A DNA stretch of 34,623 nt from Cyanobacteria bacterium QS_4_48_99. Lineage in GTDB: Bacteria; Cyanobacteriota; Cyanobacteriia; Cyanobacteriales; Rubidibacteraceae. Made by a program: the position numbers and the translations under genes. The notes beneath the pieces were generated by a model, which was not told where the DNA came from, searched no databases, and worked only from the letters and a program-made list of their open reading frames with translations. How positions within the stretch are numbered: position 1 is the stretch's first letter; each line of letters opens with the position of its first letter. Location: the NCBI GenBank assembly GCA_003021505.1, contig PXPT01000092.1, positions 1 to 34,623 on the forward strand, read 5' to 3'. Positions 15,043 to 29,279 of the stretch are shown here, piece by piece.

Positions 15043-17697
15043 TCAAACTTGAGCTAGGCTGAGGCTTTGCGACGCTTTGATCGCCTTAAGTTCTAATCCC
15101 CTCTCGAAAATTTCATCAATCGGCAACATTTGACCATCCGTGGTCATAAATTGGTGGTCTTTTGTTGCTCGAATGGTGGAGCCATCTTCTAAACAATATT
15201 CAAACACTTCTTGTTGACCGCGATTGTGCCACTGGGCAAGTGGTTGCGTATAGACGTAACCATTTTTATCGACGCTATAAACTGTACAGTTAATTTCTTC
15301 CTCAACAATTCTGCCAATGGGAATTGCGCCATATTCAACTGTCAGAATTTCCGTATCGTAACTTAGACAATATTCGGCAAACAATATCATTTGCTCGAAT
15401 AAATCTTCCGCAATACTTTTGTCAATCCCGTTTTTCGTTGCACCATCAATAAAAAGCTCTCGATGCTTCTCCATTTCTTTGACTTTCTTTTTGCCCATCG
15501 CCCGACGTAATAAGTCAGCTTGCCCCAAAGAGTAGCCCGCCAAATCCTGAGCAATTTTCATAATTTGCTCCTGATAGACCATGACTGCATAAGTCTCTTC
15601 GAGGATGGGTTCTAGCGAAGAATGCTCGTAGTGAATTTGCTCTCGGCCATGTTTGCGGTCAATAAACTTAGGAATAAGACCAGCATCTAGAGGTCCTGGT
15701 CGGTAGAGAGCACTAATTGAGGAAATATCTTCAATGCTGGAGGGTTTCAAGTCTTGCGCTACCTTCAGCATTCCAGAAGATTCTAGCTGAAAAACTCCTT
15801 CTAACTTTCCCTCTTGTATAAGTTGATAAGTCTCCTTTATATCCCTCGGTTGGGCGTTTTTAAGTTCACCTTTGGCAAGAATTTGTCTTGCTTTTCTTTC
15901 TTCAAGCGGTAAGTTATCTAAATTTAATTCCTTGTTTTTGTTTTGCTTAATTAAGTCAGCCGTTCTTTGAATTGTGGTTAGATTTTTCAATCCTAGGAAA
16001 TCCATTTTCAGGAGTCCCAGAGATTCCAAATCGTCCATAAAATACTGGGTGATCACTGTGCCGTCGTTATTTTTTTGCAGCGGCACAATCTCATCTAGAG
16101 GTTGTGCAGAAATCACCACGCCAGCAGCATGAACCCCATAAGTTTTGTTAGTCCCTTCAATGCGGATTGCCATATCCACCCAACGATGGACTTTCGGGTC
16201 ATTTTCGTATTTTTGTTTAAATTCCGGTTCTGGCGTATTCTCGGAAATCATTACTTCCAGGGGAGTGGGCTTGCCTCGTGTCACCGGAATTAGCTTTGCC
16301 ATGCGGTCAGATTCTGCGTAGGAAATATCTAACACGCGGGCAACATCTTTTAAAACCGCTTTTGAGGTCATGCGGTTAAAAGTAATGATTTGGGCGACGC
16401 GATCTTCGCCGTATGTTTCGGTAACATAGTCAATCACTTCATCCCGCCTTTCAATGCAGAAATCGGTATCAATATCTGGCATTGATTTCCGTTCGGGATT
16501 GAGAAAACGCTCAAATAAAAGTCCGTGATGAACAGGGTCAATGTTGGTGATTTTTAAGGCATAAGCAACGAGAGAGCCTGCGGAAGAACCTCTTCCCGGA
16601 CCAACGGGAATATTATTATCTCTGGCATATTTGATGTAGTCCCACACGACTAAAAAGTAGGTTGAGAACCCCCTCTGCTGCATGAGTTTCAACTCGTGTT
16701 GCAAGCGTTGTTTATAGGTGGGATCGATTTCTGAGGGAGTGCGGCATCGCAGCCGTTCTAAGAGTCCTTGCCAAGCCAGTTCTTCGAGATAGCTATCGGC
16801 AGTGTGACCCGAAGGCACGGGGTAATTGGGAATGCGCGGTTCGCCCATAACCTTATAGGGCTGCACTTTTTCGGCAACTTCCAGGGTAGTAGCGATCGCG
16901 CCCTCAATCACTTCATCCGGCAGGTGATCGCGAAACAACTGCGCCATCTCTTCGCCAGATTTGAGATACTCTGTGCCGCTGTAGCGTAAGCGCTTATCTT
17001 CGGTAATCAGCTTGCCAGTTTGTATGCAAATGAGTGCATCGTGTGCTTCCACGTCATTGCAAGATATGAAGTGAGAATCGTTAGTCGCAACAATTTTTAT
17101 CCCTAACTCGCGTGCAATTTTGACAATTTCTATATTAACAACGCGGTCTTCTGGAGAACCGTGGTCTTGAATTTCTAAATAGTAGTCTTCGCCAAATATT
17201 TCTTGATACCATTTCGCCACTTCGCGGGCACGTTTTAAATCTCCTGCCAGAATTGCCTGGGGCACTTCACCACCGAGGCAAGCACTAGTGACAATTAAAC
17301 CTTCGTGATATTGCTGGAGTAATTGTTTGTTAACGCAAGGACGGGCAAAAATACCTTTTCCTTGCATTCCATTAAGGTGAGAAAGAGTGGTAAGCTTGAC
17401 GAGATTTTGATACCCTTGGGTATTTTTTGCTAAAACAACTTGGTGATATTTGCGGTAACGTCCCTTCGTCTCGATGTCATCGGCATTAATGACATACATC
17501 TCGTTGCCAATAATGGGCTTAATCCCTTTACTACGGCAGAGTTTAATTAGTTCGATCGCGCCGTAGAGAACGCCATGATCGGTAAGTGCGATCGCGGGCA
17601 TACCTAACTCCACCGCTTGATCCACTAATGCGGGAAGCTGAGAGGCACCATCAAGAAGGCTATAATCACTGTGAATGTGTAAACCGACGAAAGACAT
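15043..17697 (-). CDS. dnaE: DNA polymerase III alpha subunit, N-terminal split half with N-intein
   Basis: ATG 17697 ([19 protein letters not shown]) is the usual cyanobacterial start. A TTG at 17709 only adds four residues. The product is 884 aa. The PHP domain begins with [11 protein letters not shown] and includes LTDHGVLYG. The C-family polymerase palm has [16 protein letters not shown] and [12 protein letters not shown] with the catalytic Asp residues. The fingers region includes [20 protein letters not shown]. The extein ends at ILFAEY, and residue 777 is the Cys1 of a split intein of 108 residues. In cyanobacteria the second half (IntC plus the polymerase C-terminus) is a distant gene, and the two are joined by protein trans-splicing. 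That second gene is not in this window. Confidence 0.97.
15046..15369 (-). other. DnaE split intein, N-fragment (IntN)
   Basis: Residues 777-884 of DnaE-N. Block A starts [19 protein letters not shown] with the nucleophile Cys1. Block B is [11 protein letters not shown] with the Thr and His that assist the first N-S shift. The order matches Npu and Ssp DnaE IntN (about 102 and 123 residues), here with a tail ending [14 protein letters not shown]. The last N-extein residues are FAEY, as in other cyanobacteria. Confidence 0.95.
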
Positions 17698-17847
17698 ATT
17701 GCTTGGCAAAAACCTGAATTCTCAAGTTAGATTTTAGCGAAGGCTTGCTTAAACTGGAATATGGCTGTGCAAACGGGGTGGCTTTTGCTCAGGTTCGCAC
17801 CAACCAGGGGCAAGCTTAGTAGTACATTGACTGTTTCTCGTCCGAAG

Positions 17848-17964: not shown

Positions 17965-18175
17965 TACGCAGCAGCGACAAAAGCGATACCCATCAGATTG
18001 CCTGGCGTGCCTTCCCCGTGTTCGAGACGTTCTGCCAGAACTCGGAAAGCTAGAGCTTGAACTTTATTAATTGCATCTTCTCGGCTGGTTCCATATACCT
18101 TAACCCCTAAAATTTCGGGGACTTCAGCAATCCATCCCCGTCTTCTTCTCGGTCTAGTTCCATCGTAAAATTCAT
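17964..18175 (-). pseudogene. HicB-like antitoxin with one-base frameshift
   Basis: ATG 18175 opens MNFTMELDREEDG and then loses frame at the G-run near 18133-18140. The following frame reads WIAEVPEILGVKVYGTSRED, then INKVQALAFRVLAERLEHGE and a stop at 17964. Together they match short HicB antitoxins (about 70 aa), which bind HicA and repress the operon. One missing base between DG and WIAEV explains the break. The downstream HicA gene is also broken, so the module is dead. Sequence from 18176 to about 18300 has no clear gene. Confidence 0.75.
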
Positions 18176-18375
18176 TGTATCCCCGAAGCCCTTCCTGATC
18201 GAGAATGGTTTTCAGAGGAAGGCAATTATTTTTATTATCAAACTCTGTTACGCGATCGCGGGCATCTCAGACAATTAAAAATTCAAGCATATTAAATTAA
18301 AAATTGTAATTAGTCCTCACTCCTTAAGTTTTTAGAATGCTACTGATGACCAATGACCAATTTAATTTTGCATTT

Positions 18376-19251
18376 TTAATTTTTAATTGGATTGGAGCGA
18401 AGCGAAGTGACTGCTGCCTGATATCGCTCCTCAATTTTTTTGCGATCCCACTCTTCTAACACCACCGCTTGGCTGTCGCGCTCAATCATGTTGGCATGAT
18501 GCAGAAGTGACGCGCGATCCTTTTTTTTTGAATATATTTAGCAATAGTGGTGATCGCTTCTAGCAAGCGGAGTGTCACCACCACGTCCGTATGGGCGAAT
18601 GGGATCTAAGGCGCTATCAGTTAACCCCGCAAACGTCACTGGATCGACAATCAAGCGGAGTTTGTGGTTGCTATAGTAGCGGTAGGGGGAGGGAATCTCC
18701 CTTTCAACGAAGCTGTCCAAATCCCTGCCAGTCTCCTGGAGAATTTGCCAAGACTGAATCGAGCGTACTGAGTGTTGGATAAAGTAGATTAGCACGCCGA
18801 CACTTGCGATCGCCAGCACAATGCCGACTGTGACAGAAATATGCGGCACAAATACACTGTCTTCCGCGCCACGAATTGTTCCCAGTAAGAGCAAACAGTA
18901 GAGGAATGTAGCTGCAAAAGTGCCCAGCACAACCTTATTGCCGGTGTTTCGCATGAGGTTAATGAGCTGTCGCGGACCGAACTGGGAGGAAGTCAACGTG
19001 AAGGCAACAATTACAATCGAGAAAACAGTACCGGCGACAGAAATCGTGGAACCAGCAACGGTGGAAAGCAAGGCGCGCGCCCCATTCGGTCCACCCGTGT
19101 AAACCCAGCCCAAAGACCCCACGGCTCGGACGGGGGTGCCCGATCAAGGGTCAGCATCCCCAATGCCGGTCCCATGCCGATGACTGCCATCAGTGTGGGT
19201 AAAAAGAAGTAGTTGTAGAGAAGCGTTTCCCAAAGTTTTTTTCAGGTTCAT
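18376..19251 (-). pseudogene. DUF2254 membrane protein, copy 3 (decayed)
   Basis: Comparison with the intact copy just upstream shows the lesions. After ATG 19251 the frame slips within an A-run, and LWETLLYNYFFLPTLMAVIG follows in another frame. A second slip near 19115 leads into the long open part (GARALLSTVAGSTISVAGTV to RDLDSF). About 150 codons of the central soluble domain are then missing, so RDLDSF joins VEREIPSPYRY directly. Two more slips follow near 18585 and 18515, with the C-terminus still readable as IERDSQAVVLEEWDRKKIEE, ending at 18376. It is a clear pseudogene of the middle copy's family. Confidence 0.85.
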
Positions 19252-19254
19252 AAT

Positions 19255-20556
19255 TTACTGCTCTAGCACCTTCACTGCTGTCTGATATCCCTCCTCAATT
19301 TTTTTTCGATCTCGCTGATCGAACGCCACCTCACGGCTGTCGCGCTCGATCGCCTGGGCATGATCCAGAAGTACCGCGCGCTGCCTTTGGTGGCGGGTGC
19401 GTTGAGCAACAGTAGCGATCGCTTCTAGCAAGCCGATAGCGACCATCGCGTCCGAGCGCCCGTATTGGCGAATGGGGTCGAAGGCGCTGTCAGTTAGCTC
19501 CGCAAACGTTGCCTGGTTTCTAATCAGGCGGAGTTTATTGTTGTTGTCGTAGCGATAGGGAGACGGAATCTCACTCTCAGCCAGGCGGCAAAGCCCGGCG
19601 GTGAGCTTGTTAATGCACTGGAGCGCCGTAAAGGGATCGTTGATGCTGGGAGAAATAGCGCGAATGGCAATTTCGACTAGGCGGTTGACTGAGAACTCGA
19701 CATCCTGTATGGCAGAGCGTTGCTTCCCTAGAATCAACGCATCATTAATCTGCCTAGTGAGCTGATTATTCGCTAGTTTTCCAGGCGAGATCCTTGCCAG
19801 CTCATCTCCCTCCACAATATAGTTGCCGGGGCGGTGTTTGACGCGCACAAGGATGTCAAACGAGCTAGCAATCTTCACTAACGCCTCGTCATCAACTCCC
19901 TGGATATAACCACCACCAGTCGCCAAGATGGGCGAGGCTTCCTTATCTGAGGGGATTTCCTCTACTCCCCGCGAGGCTGCTCTACCCTGCCCGAACTTCC
20001 GGGAAAGCAGAGTGTTGATGCTACTGTCCAAATCGCTACTAGTATTCTGGATAATTTCCCAAGACTGAATCGACTTTGCTGCGTGTTGGACAAAGTAGAT
20101 CAGCATAACAACGCTGGTGATCGCCAGTAGGATGCCCACTGTTATGGAAATATGCGGCACAAATACGCTGGGCTTTTCCTGGACAGCTCTTAGGACGAGC
20201 AAACAGTGGAGGAACGTAGCTATGAATGTGCCCAGCACAACTTTATTGCTGGTGTCCCGCATGAAGTTAATCACCAGTCGCGGACCGAACTGGGAGGAGG
20301 TCAGATTGAGCAGAACCACGATGACCGAGAAAGTGGTGGCGGCGATGCTGACTATGGAACTAGCGATGGTAGAAAGTAAGCTGCGCGCAGCCTTCGGTCC
20401 ACTCGCGTAGAGCCAGCTCGGCTCGAACTGAATCATCCGGTCAAAGGCAAGTGTCCCAAATGCCAGCCCAATGCCGATGACTCCTACCAGCGTCGGCAAA
20501 AGCAAGTAGTTGTAGAGAAGCGTTTCCAGGATTTTTTTCAGCTTAATATTTTTCAT
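19255..20556 (-). CDS. DUF2254 predicted membrane protein, copy 2 (intact)
   Basis: The product is 433 aa from ATG 20556. The N-terminal 150 residues have four hydrophobic helices (LLLPTLVGVIGIGLAFGTLA; STIASSIVSIAATTFSVIVV; VLGTFIATFLHCLLVL; ITVGILLAITSVVMLIYFVQ). The rest is soluble: a region around SRGVEEIPSDKEASPILA, then RVKHRPGNYIVEGDELARI, SINDPFTALQCINKL, and a C-terminal helix ending YQTAVKVLEQ. This is the DUF2254 layout, whose function is unknown. It starts 3 bp after the stop of copy 1, and copy 3 starts 3 bp after its own stop. All three sit behind an AI-2E-type permease, and this is the only undamaged copy. Confidence 0.85.
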   Translation of the reverse strand: MKNIKLKKILETLLYNYLLLPTLVGVIGIGLAFGTLAFDRMIQFEPSWLYASGPKAARSLLSTIASSIVSIAATTFSVIVVLLNLTSSQFGPRLVINFMRDTSNKVVLGTFIATFLHCLLVLRAVQEKPSVFVPHISITVGILLAITSVVMLIYFVQHAAKSIQSWEIIQNTSSDLDSSINTLLSRKFGQGRAASRGVEEIPSDKEASPILATGGGYIQGVDDEALVKIASSFDILVRVKHRPGNYIVEGDELARISPGKLANNQLTRQINDALILGKQRSAIQDVEFSVNRLVEIAIRAISPSINDPFTALQCINKLTAGLCRLAESEIPSPYRYDNNNKLRLIRNQATFAELTDSAFDPIRQYGRSDAMVAIGLLEAIATVAQRTRHQRQRAVLLDHAQAIERDSREVAFDQRDRKKIEEGYQTAVKVLEQ

Positions 20557-20559
20557 AAT

Positions 20560-21966
20560 TTACTGCTCTAATGCCTTCACTGCTGCCTGATATCGCCCCT
20601 CAATCTTTTTTTGATCTCGCTGATCGAAGGCAATCTCACGGCTGTCGCACTCGATCGCCTGGACATGATCCAGAAGTACCGTGCGCTGCTTTTGGTGGCG
20701 GGTGCGTTGAGCAACATTAGCAATTATCTCTAGCAAGCGAATGATCAACCGATGCGTGCAATCGCCCATATTTACGAATTACGTCGAAGGCGTTGTCAGT
20801 TACTCCTGCAAACGTCACCTGATTTACAATCAGGCGGAGTTTGTGGTTGTCATCGTAGTAGTTGGAGGATGGGATCTCCCTTTCAGCCAGGTGACAGAGC
20901 CCTACACTGAGCTGATCCATACACCGGATCACCGTGAAGGGATTGGAGGGGGGAGATATGGCACAAATGGCAATTTCGACTAACTGGTTGATCTGGAACT
21001 CTATATCCTGCTGTGCATCCCGTTGTTTGCTCAGGATGAACTGGTTGTTAATCTGCCTGGTGAGCTTATTATTCACTCCTTCTTTATAGCAAACCATTGC
21101 CAGCTCATCTCCCTGCACAATAAACCTGCCGGGGCGATGTTTGAGGCGCAAAAGGAGGTCAGAGGAGGTGGCAATTTTGAGCAATCGGTTGATATCAATT
21201 TCCTCGATATAAGCGCTGCCACTCGCCAGGATAGGCGATGATTCCTGCTCTGAGGGGATTTCCTCCACTCCCCGCGAAGCTGTTTGATTATACCTAGCCT
21301 TCTTAGGAAAGAGGAGAGTGATGTTTTTATCGAGATCTGTGCCAACATCATCGATAATGTTGCCCGCCTGAATTGAGCTTACTGCGTGTTGGATGAAGTA
21401 AATTAGCAAGCCGATGCTAGTGATCGCCAGTAGGATGCCCACAGTGGCTGAGATTTGGGCAAAAATACGTTTTGTTTTCCTCCCTGGATGGTTTGCAGTA
21501 TAAGCAAGCAGTAGAGGAATCTAGCTGCGAATGTGCCCAGCACGACCTTATTGCCGGTGTCCCGCATGAAGTTACGCAGCAGTCGCGGACCGAACTGGGA
21601 GGAAGTCAGAGTGAGGGCAACAATCACAATCGAGAAAGTGGTGGCGGCAACGCTGATCGCCGTACCAGCGATGGTAGAAAGCAGCGTACGCGCACTCTGT
21701 GCTTCTCCCGCGTAGAGCAAGCTCAGCGAGCCAGTCGAGTTGAACTCAACTATCCGATCCAGAGTCAGTGTCGCAAACGCCAACCCAGCAGCGATCACTG
21801 TCATCAGAGTTGGTATAAACCAATAGCTGTAGCTCAGCGAGTTCCCAACTTGACCAACGGTCAGAGCAGGCTCCGTTACGGACGTATGAAGGGGGTGAGG
21901 TAATTCGCCCCCCGCGTCCTCCGCTTTGAGGCGGAGTGATCTCTGACTTAGTTTAATGTTTTTCAT
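20560..21966 (-). pseudogene. DUF2254 membrane protein, copy 1 (two frameshifts)
   Basis: ATG 21966 opens MKNIKL, as in copy 2, but is followed by about 30 extra residues before the first helix (SYWFIPTLMTVIAAGLAFAT). Near 21455-21466 one base is lost, so VFLP continues as ISATVGILLAITS in another frame. The central domain is whole (SRGVEEIPSEQESSPILASG; RLKHRPGRFIVQGDELAMV). A second slip near 20755-20775 follows RKYGR, and LLEIIANVAQRTRHQKQ to VKALEQ completes the family C-terminus. Overall length and block order equal copy 2. The break points differ from those of copy 3, so the copies decayed independently. Both slips could be sequencing errors, in which case it would be a second intact copy. 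Confidence 0.82.
21847..21936. repeat. 90-bp in-frame insertion bounded by small palindromes
   Basis: This segment encodes about 30 residues (including AEDAGGELPHPLHTSVTEPA) that copy 2 lacks. One end is the perfect hairpin CTCCGC-TTTGAG-GCGGAG (21919-21936). Near the other end is TGACC-AAC-GGTCA (21851-21863). The length is a multiple of three, so the frame was kept. It looks like a small mobile palindromic element inserted in the gene. Confidence 0.6.
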
Positions 21967-21971
21967 GCTTC

Positions 21972-22988
21972 TTAGCGCTGATTTAGAAAGTCTTTAATCA
22001 GAAGCTCTTTTAGCAAAACTTCAGCAACAACTGCTATCGGCAGTGCCAAGATCAAACCCAGTATCCCAAAGAAAATGCCAAAAACAACCAAGGACAGTAA
22101 GGTAATCGCTGGCAGCATAGATACCTGCCTCTGCATAACTAAAGGAGTCAGAATATTGCTTTCTATCTGCTGAATGGCGATATACAAAACCAACACTGCC
22201 AATGCTTTCCAGGGTGCATCAAGTAAGGCAAGTACCGCAGGTGGAATGACACTCAAGGTGGGTCCAATATTGGGAATGTACGTTAATAAGCCTGCCAGTA
22301 AACCATTTGCCAGCGGTAGGCGCACTCCCAAAATCCACAAACCCATCCCACTGAAAACAGCAATAACGGTCATGTTAAAGAGAATGCCAATTGCCCAGCC
22401 GCTGAGCGCCTCATCACATTTATCGAGCACTTCACTGATGCGAAGGCGACGGGAAGAGGGGAATAGCTGCATAAACGCCCATCGGTACTTGGACGGTTCT
22501 GCCAGTAGCATGATTGTCAAAACTGTAACCAGCAAAGCACTGAGGACAACACTAAGCGTGTTGGCAAATAAAGCAAGAAAGTTGTCAAATAGCCGACCTA
22601 CAAGGTCTTGGATTTGGGGAATCAGCCCACCCGTTCCCCGGAGACGCTCTAGCACCGAAACTGGAACAAAATTTTGCAGCCGATTGAGCCAACCACGAAA
22701 CTCCTCTATCCCTTGAGGTAAAAGTTCGATTAACTGTTGAAATTGGTTGACAAAAGGCGGCACAATCACCGCAATAAAGAGGGCGAGCACTACTAGTAAA
22801 CCCACCATGGTGAGCGGGACTGCAAGACTTCGCTTCATGCCTGATCGCTCTAGTCGTCGCACGACTCGGTTCAAAACAGTGGCAATTACTACAGCCGTGA
22901 ATGCCAGCAAGAGAGCCTGCCGGATTTGCCAAAAAATGTAGATGGAAATAACTAGAACGACTAAGCCAAACCACTGCCCCGCAGTCAA
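21972..22988 (-). CDS. AI-2E / PerM-family permease
   Basis: This 338-aa protein is a member of the AI-2E transporter superfamily (UPF0118). It has about eight membrane helices: two at the N-terminus (FGLVVLVISIYIFWQIR; LLLAFTAVVIATVLNRVV), a third (VGLLVVLALFIAVIVPPFV), then a soluble segment with QQLIELLPQGIEEFRGW and a membrane block. The family motif GLLTYIPNIGPTLSVIPPA is present. Members export varied small solutes or act in Na+/H+ exchange, and few do AI-2. A TTG start at 22988 is supported by GGAGGA about 10 nt upstream, and no in-frame ATG precedes the first helix. The DUF2254 copy 1 begins 5 bp after the stop, so they form one transcript. Confidence 0.88.
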   Translation of the reverse strand: MTAGQWFGLVVLVISIYIFWQIRQALLLAFTAVVIATVLNRVVRRLERSGMKRSLAVPLTMVGLLVVLALFIAVIVPPFVNQFQQLIELLPQGIEEFRGWLNRLQNFVPVSVLERLRGTGGLIPQIQDLVGRLFDNFLALFANTLSVVLSALLVTVLTIMLLAEPSKYRWAFMQLFPSSRRLRISEVLDKCDEALSGWAIGILFNMTVIAVFSGMGLWILGVRLPLANGLLAGLLTYIPNIGPTLSVIPPAVLALLDAPWKALAVLVLYIAIQQIESNILTPLVMQRQVSMLPAITLLSLVVFGIFFGILGLILALPIAVVAEVLLKELLIKDFLNQR

Positions 22989-23048: not shown

Positions 23049-23597
23049 CTAATTTTGTTTGACAGAACTGAGCAGAAAAAGCGAAGTAATGCCTCCGACT
23101 AAGTGTGCCCCAGTAATATTCGTGTTCACCAAAATTATCAACACATCCAGGGTTTGAATGATTGTTTCCGGTTCGTAAATCATTCTGCCTTGGGGTTGTG
23201 CCAGCGCTTTGGCTAGCGTTGCGACCACACTAATTTCCGATCCCACAAAACCTAATAATATACCTACCAAGCTTACTATCAATCCGGTTCGTATGATGCG
23301 AACTGTATCTTTTTTATTAGGATAGAGTTGAGGGTTGGAGGTTTGTAAGCGTTTGGCTAAACGAGTGTAGCGGAAAGCCAAATAGATACGAAAGCACAAC
23401 GCCAACATTACACCCACAGCTAAAAATAAACTGATTCCCATCGCTGTACTCTTGCTTTGGGCAGCGATTGTCCGACTAAAGAGGGCAAATAATAAAGCGA
23501 TGCCAGAAACAGCAGTTAGCGCTAGCTGTACCCAGAAGCTAATTCGAGTCGTTCTGCGAAAAGTGGTGGCAAATTGTTGTCTAGTTGGGGAACTCAT
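23049..23597 (-). CDS. DUF3611 family membrane protein
   Basis: The product is 182 aa from ATG 23597. It has four hydrophobic helices: WVQLALTAVSGIALLFALF, AMGISLFLAVGVMLALCF, TGLIVSLVGILLGFVGSEIS and LDVLIILVNTNITGAHLVGG. Order and length match the cyanobacterial and plastid DUF3611 family, whose function is not established. It lies 60 bp upstream of the permease on the same strand and may lead the operon of permease plus DUF2254 proteins. No signal peptide or enzyme motif is visible. Confidence 0.8.
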   Translation of the reverse strand: MSSPTRQQFATTFRRTTRISFWVQLALTAVSGIALLFALFSRTIAAQSKSTAMGISLFLAVGVMLALCFRIYLAFRYTRLAKRLQTSNPQLYPNKKDTVRIIRTGLIVSLVGILLGFVGSEISVVATLAKALAQPQGRMIYEPETIIQTLDVLIILVNTNITGAHLVGGITSLFLLSSVKQN

Positions 23598-28133: not shown

Positions 28134-29279
28134 ATGGTAACTGGAACAATCACATATAAGCTATATCCGGGTGTCCAAGCTACTGATACTCTCCATGGGG
28201 CGCGTAAGATGCACTGTGATCTCTACAATTCATCCCTACGCAACCGTGAAAATCAGTATCAACGCTGGGTTATCTCGATTAGCTATTTTGACCAGCAGAG
28301 AAGCTTGACTGAGTTAAAGAAAGAGTTACCAGAATATGCAGAGCTAGCTTGTCATAGCCTTCAAAATACTCTTCAGCGAGTAGATTTTGCCTATCAGCGA
28401 TTTTTCCAAGGATGGAGTAAATATCCTTGAAAGGGAAAAGACGTTATAGAGGGTGGACTTATCCTTGTAAATCAGGATGGAAAGTTCACACCAGGGGCGG
28501 CGTTAATGGCAAGTTAGAGTGAAAAGATCTAGGGCGTGTCTGTACGTATTCGTGGAAAAGCTAAAACGTGGGGTATTCCTAAGGGTTGCAAGATTGTTTG
28601 GGATGGTAAAGATTGGTATGCTTCGATCACTGTCGATTGTGTACCAGAGCGTCAAACCGGAAACAACGCTCTAGGACTTGATTTTGGTGGTAAAACTGCA
28701 ATTGCTACATCTAACGGCGGATTTGTGAAAGCTCCTAGGTTTCAAACTCAGGCGCAAGAGAAAGTCAATCTGCTTTCTAAAAAGTTAGGTCGGAAACAAC
28801 AACCAGTCAAAGGAAAGTCTCAAGCTTCCCGACGCTGGAAAAAATACCAAGGCAAAATCCGTAGGGTGAAGCGAATTGAGGCTAATCGTAGATGCGATTG
28901 GAGTCATCAAGTAGCAGCACAAATGGTCAGCAGTAATCGCTTGGTTGCTACGGAAAAGCTAAACCTTAAGGGCATGACTCGCAAGGGGAAGAGACAAAAG
29001 ACGGGACTCAATCGTTCTATTGTTGATGTCGCTATCGGTAAAACTAAAGATGGGATTAAGTACAAAGTTGAGGAGGCTAACGGGGTCTACTTGGAGACTC
29101 CTACCCGACAATTAAAGCCAACACCACCTTGTGCTAAACGTTGGGAGACTAAACCTAAAACTTGGTCTGATCGCGTCCACCACTGCCAAGGTTGCGGTCA
29201 TAGCGAAGACAGAGACATCAACGCTGCCCAAGCAATTTTGATTGGGGCGAGGGGCAGGAACTGTCCTCTTCAGACGTAG
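28134..29279 (+). pseudogene. tnpB: TnpB RNA-guided nuclease gene, broken
   Basis: The start is ATG 28134. There are three lesions: a frameshift just before the TGA at 28428-28430, an in-frame TGA at 28520-28522 within KLE-TGA-KDLG, and a second slip just before the GTG at 28536. The C-terminal frame (247 codons) keeps the RuvC residues: Asp in ALGLDFGGKTAIA, Glu in VATEKLNLKGM and Asp in SEDRDINAAQAI. In the zinc ribbon the first CxxC reads CAKR, where Cys is expected at the fourth place (TGT to CGT). The second pair, HHCQGCG, is intact. It is therefore damaged in several ways and is not expected to cut DNA. Confidence 0.85.

Follow-up and report, generated by a model that had tools for sequence, protein, structure and literature searches.

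Tandem duplication followed by pseudogene formation is a known general process. Here, we describe a locus of this kind in Cyanobacteria bacterium QS_4_48_99, where a stretch of 34,623 nucleotides (hereafter the window; it is contig C92 of a 99.9% complete draft genome, with 3.62 Mb in 196 contigs) carries on its minus strand three genes of the membrane-protein family DUF2254 (PF10011; InterPro IPR018723) arranged head to tail. In cyanobacteria, members of this family commonly lie next to genes for a short MscS-type mechanosensitive channel, and we consider it likely that the window holds an accessory protein left orphaned, which underwent amplification and drift and is now being lost. Literature searches on DUF2254, on accession names, and on MscS in cyanobacteria revealed no DUF2254-MscS link in the titles or beginnings of abstracts that were listed and nothing on this locus. 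With regard to protein structure, a passage of PMC11184937 describes AlphaFold models of the DUF2254 family as knotted or slipknotted.

Three head-to-tail copies and their lesions

The copies are numbered in minus-strand reading order, copy 1 being the first and copy 3 the last (Table 1). Copy 2 matches the PF10011 profile with 401.9 bits (E 2.8e-120) over model positions 4 to 367 of 368, two pieces of copy 1 score 137.5 and 214.9 bits, and a piece of copy 3 scores 185 bits, so that all four open pieces scanned exceed the curated cut-off of 28.8 bits. Both junctions have the identical sequence TAAATTATGAA. An earlier note on this DNA, made by a model from the letters alone, had described three DUF2254 genes head to tail with 3-bp gaps, and the profile matches and identical junctions bear this out. 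No further DUF2254 gene was found in a search of the genome.

Lesions were called relative to copy 2, and their exact positions depend on the alignment. Compared with intact relatives, the frame is broken in copies 1 and 3 but not in copy 2, which is open throughout. Copy 1 displays one-base frame slips near 21457 and near 20747, as well as in-frame insertions or deletions (indels) of 93, 12, 3, and 3 bp. In copy 3, the frame is changed by five or six indels (near 19241, 19121, 18586, and 18518 and at the 3' end), and 146 codons are lost in frame; one loss in this copy measures 8 bp. Comparison of copies 1 and 3 revealed no frame-changing lesion in common. The two slips of copy 1, the several slips and the deletion of about 150 codons in copy 3, the clean copy 2, and the separate nature of the lesions had all been recognized in the earlier note and hold up here; its lesion list for copy 1 was incomplete, as the 93-bp in-frame insertion had been overlooked. 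Position 18376, given there as the boundary of the triplet, is the stop reached by one copy 3 frame running on, and copy 3 itself ends near the position given in Table 1.

In a tree of 62 rows, the three copies form one clade with support of 100/99 and therefore arose in this lineage, although their branching order within the clade is unsure (93/22). Their end branches measure 0.52 to 0.62, compared to a median of 0.16. The genus is represented by this genome alone and the family by nine genomes; no DUF2254 gene was found in the other eight (one of which is 85% complete), nor, among these eight, a relative with three intact copies. Two draws of 388 genomes each, by order and by class, which are overlapping sets searched with different queries and thresholds, contained 114 and 75 genomes with a DUF2254 match; in most drawn genomes only four candidates were scored, and extra copies may be missed there. 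Among the places listed, we observe by eye two separate copies within 3 kb only in this genome and in genome G573. In G095 and G174, pieces that lie close together match separate portions of the model, and each such pair looks like one split gene.

The 3' ends of copies 1 and 2 share a tract of raised identity (Table 1), and the best 165-bp window of identity between these two copies is reached in 0 of 2000 codon shuffles. The raised identity suggests that this tract was converted or that recombination had its border there. A single origin of the triplet is favored because the copies form one clade, share identical junctions, are tightly spaced on the same strand, and show raised 3' identity between copies 1 and 2.

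Age, constraint, and decay

The amplification is, judged by sequence divergence, not recent, with aligned DNA identities of 74% (copies 1 and 2), 75% (copies 2 and 3), and 70% (copies 1 and 3); at this level of identity, chance resemblance is not an issue. By the NG86 method, the synonymous divergence (dS) of the same three pairs is 0.58, 0.51, and 0.67, and the ratio of nonsynonymous to synonymous divergence (dN/dS), a comparison proposed in the earlier note, is 0.45, 0.50, and 0.44 (0.71, 0.58, and 0.52 by YN00). As a control, 43 pairs of relatives whose dS falls between 0.2 and 1 gave NG86 ratios of 0.07 to 0.275. Per-copy three-point estimates of dN/dS are 0.39, 0.51, and 0.49 for copies 1, 2, and 3 (95% bootstrap intervals of 0.26 to 0.65, 0.30 to 1.08, and 0.32 to 0.77); leaving out the 3' tract lowers them to 0.36, 0.46, and 0.38.

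We regarded a position as near-invariant if its conservation in 59 relatives reached at least 95%. Of such positions, 22 of 119 are altered in copy 1, just as many in copy 2, and 16 of 83 in copy 3, compared to a mean of 2.1 and a maximum of 10 when each of the 59 relatives is left out in turn. Against a reference of 61 proteins encoded next to MscS genes, the altered positions number 24 of 125, 20 of 126, and 17 of 91 for copies 1, 2, and 3. By these measures, the open copy 2 is no better protected than the broken copies.

No internal stops are present in the projected frames of copies 1, 2, and 3 (428, 431, and 273 codons). Under a simple substitution model, neutral drift along the whole branch leaves these frames free of stops in 0, 4, and 10 of 1000 simulations, and drift along half of it in 0.75%, 4.75%, and 6.25% of 400 runs; for a tenth of the branch, the share is 34 to 53% of runs. 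Because the frames lack internal stops, a rare outcome of neutral drift along the whole branch, they were probably broken late; through much of their history, the copies were probably maintained as proteins under weak constraint. The neutral phase that the data permit is longer for copies 2 and 3 than for copy 1. Amplification followed by loss, as proposed in the earlier note, therefore survives in part: the amplification is specific to the lineage, but a quick course with one healthy survivor is not supported by the dS values of 0.51 to 0.67, the dN/dS values above those of the control pairs, and the altered positions of copy 2.

MscS-type neighbors and explanations of the decay

The surroundings of DUF2254 genes were surveyed in 44 loci, comprising the window, 40 picked stretches (mostly long contigs), G573, and two named contigs. 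A gene of one single cluster lies on the same strand no more than 150 bp upstream of 32 of 46 DUF2254 genes or open pieces, two of which are contributed by the window, and overlaps the DUF2254 frame in 21 cases. Two scanned members of this cluster match the MscS models PF00924, PF21082, and PF05552. Its 43 members consist of the query from Nostoc favosum, 37 proteins 69 to 92% identical to it, and five other MscS proteins with 23 to 39% identity. Among 76 distinct DUF2254 proteins of at least 380 residues (reduced from 103 places by removing shorter and identical ones), 61 are encoded directly downstream of a short MscS-type gene, 12 are not, and 3 have too little flank. The surveyed cyanobacterial loci have further frequent neighbors, named from one scanned member each: DUF389 occurs in 16 loci, an ion channel in 13, DUF3611 in 12, and a Na+/H+ exchanger in 11.

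MscS is also found beside DUF2254 in four of eight plasmid regions that were read, three of which (H1, H20, and H24) had been chosen because MscS showed among their listed genes. The two genes adjoin each other in the Nostoc C052 and Deinococcus actinosclerus regions and overlap by 4 bp in Deinococcus ficus; in Lichenicola their order is reversed and DUF2254 is in two pieces. A Na+/H+ antiporter gene lies upstream of DUF2254 on a Hymenobacter plasmid, and betT directly upstream in two Klebsiella plasmid regions (L186 and L188). In total, DUF2254 relatives were seen in 1639 plasmid records, 1233 of them from Klebsiella (approximately 23 to 27% identity among the matches listed), and none in phage records. 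By guilt by association, this neighborhood supports a putative osmotic or ion role for DUF2254.

The upstream neighbor of copy 1 is a PF01594 gene and not an MscS gene of the partner type. This genome contains five MscS matches, the best of which is 26% identical to the partner type (E 6.4e-25), and the partner type itself was not found anywhere in the genome. Of 12 genomes searched, namely, this one and 11 chosen for a missing or odd pair, six contain the partner type (67 to 78%) and six, including this one, do not.

On this basis, our favored explanation is that a single DUF2254 gene following an AI-2E-type transporter gene would have been copied head to tail into three within the lineage. 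All three copies would have drifted under relaxed constraint, readable for much of their age, until copy 1 broke through slips and the insertion of a repeat and copy 3 through slips and the 146-codon loss; copy 2 would still read through with conserved sites about as altered as in the broken copies. Normally, DUF2254 may act as a putative membrane accessory of the short upstream MscS-type channel under osmotic or ion stress, and since no partner channel is present in this genome, it would here be an orphan under weak selection. The channel would presumably have been lost before the triplication. More far-reaching, and doubtful in our view, is the proposal that DUF2254 might serve a widespread short MscS-type channel as its dedicated membrane partner, and hence be a general osmotic or ion-stress accessory, with the window representing amplification, drift, and loss without that channel. 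This proposal rests on the gene overlap in cyanobacteria and Deinococcus, and a Na+/H+ antiporter or betT takes the place of MscS elsewhere.

Several observations weigh against the favored explanation. The per-copy dN/dS intervals are wide and overlapping, the surveyed loci were best scoring or hand-picked rather than randomly drawn, and one of the eight plasmid regions has no transport gene beside DUF2254. Genomes G116, G094, G626, G432, and G600 also lack the partner channel, and the partnerless proteins L147 (G116), L089 (G600), and L146 (G094) have just 1, 2, and 2 positions altered, being conserved like partnered ones. Absence of the partner by itself was tested as a cause of decay and gained little support: adjacent proteins (n = 61) have on average 2.5 altered positions and non-adjacent proteins (n = 12) have 4.8 (Mann-Whitney P = 0.05, uncorrected for kinship). 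The most altered non-adjacent protein, L138 (18 of 127), does come from a partnerless genome, G432. Since partnerless DUF2254 proteins can be well conserved, the missing partner alone is not the cause, and it explains the decay only in part. Furthermore, an AlphaFold model of copy 2, built from four aligned sequences, reached a mean predicted local distance difference test (pLDDT) score of 46.4, too poor for judging the knotted fold or a physical link to MscS. The one match listed among solved structures, to an aquaporin (E 0.7), was taken as chance.

Several other explanations were considered. The slips could be sequencing or assembly errors in three working genes, given a draft of 196 contigs in which the frame of copy 1 slips at just two places, by one base each, and contains no internal stop when projected. 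We regard this as quite unlikely, however, as the 438-bp and 8-bp losses and altered end of copy 3 and the inserted repeat of copy 1 are atypical of base-calling errors, many near-invariant positions are altered in both broken copies, and the Pfam domains of the AI-2E, DUF3611, DnaE half, and Uma2 genes in the window are read through unbroken. If copy 2 had instead changed under selection for a new role, it would make sense that it is the only open copy, that it is free of stops as in only 4 of 1000 full-branch neutral runs, and that its dN/dS point estimate is the highest of the three; this estimate is nevertheless below 1, and the changes in copy 2 are as numerous as those in the broken copies, which makes such a role unlikely.

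The tight 3-bp spacing on one strand and the long coexistence without stops would fit subunits of one mixed complex that is now reducing to a single-subunit form. Yet single or dispersed copies are the rule among the places listed in the two 388-genome draws, with up to four candidates per genome in most, and we consider a former complex very unlikely. Finally, the AI-2E transporter may have replaced MscS as the partner, with the altered positions reflecting the new partner. Its gene directly precedes copy 1, and AI-2E and DUF3611 genes also occur in the DUF2254 regions of G573 (L105) and G655 (L139). An AI-2E relative is, however, present in all nine family genomes (twice in G005), and since eight of them have no DUF2254, AI-2E does not depend on it; a replacement of this kind seems rather improbable. 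We retain amplification, drift, and loss of an orphaned accessory as the likely explanation of the triplet.

Other features of the window and comparison with described systems

Table 1. Features of the DUF2254 locus (positions in the window)
Feature	Position	Strand	Remarks
DUF3611 gene (PF12263)	23049-23597	-	same strand, upstream of AI-2E gene
AI-2E family transporter gene (PF01594)	21972-22988	-	5 bp upstream of copy 1
DUF2254 copy 1, broken	20560-21966	-	two one-base frame slips and repeat insertion near start
Dispersed palindromic repeat (model R1)	21850-21947	-	in frame near copy 1 start, E 1e-12; loop with further palindrome
Copy 1 3' end, matching side of tract	20560-20727	-	same 148/168 tract
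3-bp gap, copies 1/2	20557-20559	-	context TAAATTATGAA
DUF2254 copy 2, open	19255-20556	-	433 codons; 22/119 near-invariant family positions altered
Copy 2 3' end, raised identity to copy 1	19255-19422	-	148/168 identical vs 810/1130 elsewhere
3-bp gap, copies 2/3	19252-19254	-	context TAAATTATGAA
DUF2254 copy 3, broken	about 18398-19251	-	several frame-changing indels, 438-bp in-frame loss at 18713, altered 3' end

The 93-bp in-frame insertion of copy 1 sits within a copy of a dispersed repeat, which is the sole match to this repeat in the window. The element is a 53-bp palindrome with covarying stems (both sides changed in 8 of 15 consensus pairs in a set of 12 sequences) and a conserved ACCGTTGGT tail. 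Its loop in copy 1 is enlarged and encloses a second palindrome, part of which weakly matches another place in the genome (E 0.4); further palindromes were seen by eye in the loops of some repeat copies. With 150 of 669 to 2583 candidates scored per genome, the repeat was counted at least 32 times in this genome and 2 to 62 times in six of the eight other family genomes, and it was not found in the remaining two, so that it is present in seven of nine family genomes. Rfam contains no family for this repeat, the only two matches across 12 sources being a tRNA and an overlapping family in L046.

Regarding the neighboring genes, DUF3611 is encoded twice in this genome, the second gene being located on contig C155 (5515-6042); seven of the eight family relatives have one match and the eighth, G003, has two. 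NCBIfam has no name for copy 2 or for the DUF3611 protein of the window. A candidate coding remnant at 17967-18251 has no Pfam match. Elsewhere in the window, a short, probably truncated IS605-type OrfB/TnpB gene of 247 codons (PF01385 and PF07282) lies at 28536-29279, and the N-terminal half of DnaE is encoded at 15043-17709. The end of this half resembles a split-intein half (Intein_splicing match below the cut-off), which we take to be the split DnaE intein.

A broken DUF2254 copy is also observed in G573 (contig C193), where, on the same strand, it lies downstream of an intact one at a distance of approximately 340 bp, with AI-2E and DUF3611 genes nearby, as in the window. In contrast to the triplet, its DNA is closer to that of a distant intact copy than to that of its neighbor; it is not a plain tandem repeat, and G573 was therefore rejected as a second clean tandem duplication. 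Also unlike the window, both intact DUF2254 copies of G573 have a partner-type MscS gene directly upstream. The whole island (L105) contains two DUF2254-MscS pairs, the third, broken DUF2254, and the AI-2E and DUF3611 genes, as well as, by eye, genes for an HtrA-like protease and PRC-barrel proteins. Separately, the DUF2254 gene of Aphanothece hegewaldii (L037:4602-5930) has an in-frame stop, and stops were seen in other relatives too.

The tripling and decay of the locus are ordinary genome erosion. The useful part is the MscS link: in several phyla, members of this functionally uncharacterized family neighbor genes for mechanosensitive channels, and this pairing offers a direct route to testing DUF2254 function. 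Like the MscS-DUF2254 pair of cyanobacteria, Deinococcus, and Lichenicola, the window shows a same-strand run with a membrane transport gene; it differs in that the upstream neighbor is an AI-2E transporter gene and the partner-type MscS is absent. Compared to the DUF2254 family at large, the gene is tripled in tandem, has no partner-type MscS, and displays unusually many changes at conserved positions. With tandem duplication and subsequent pseudogene formation, the locus shares the head-to-tail copies, the 3' tract of raised identity, and the separate lesions. Nothing basic differs from that process, except that the amplification here is old and conservation is no better in the open copy than in the broken ones.

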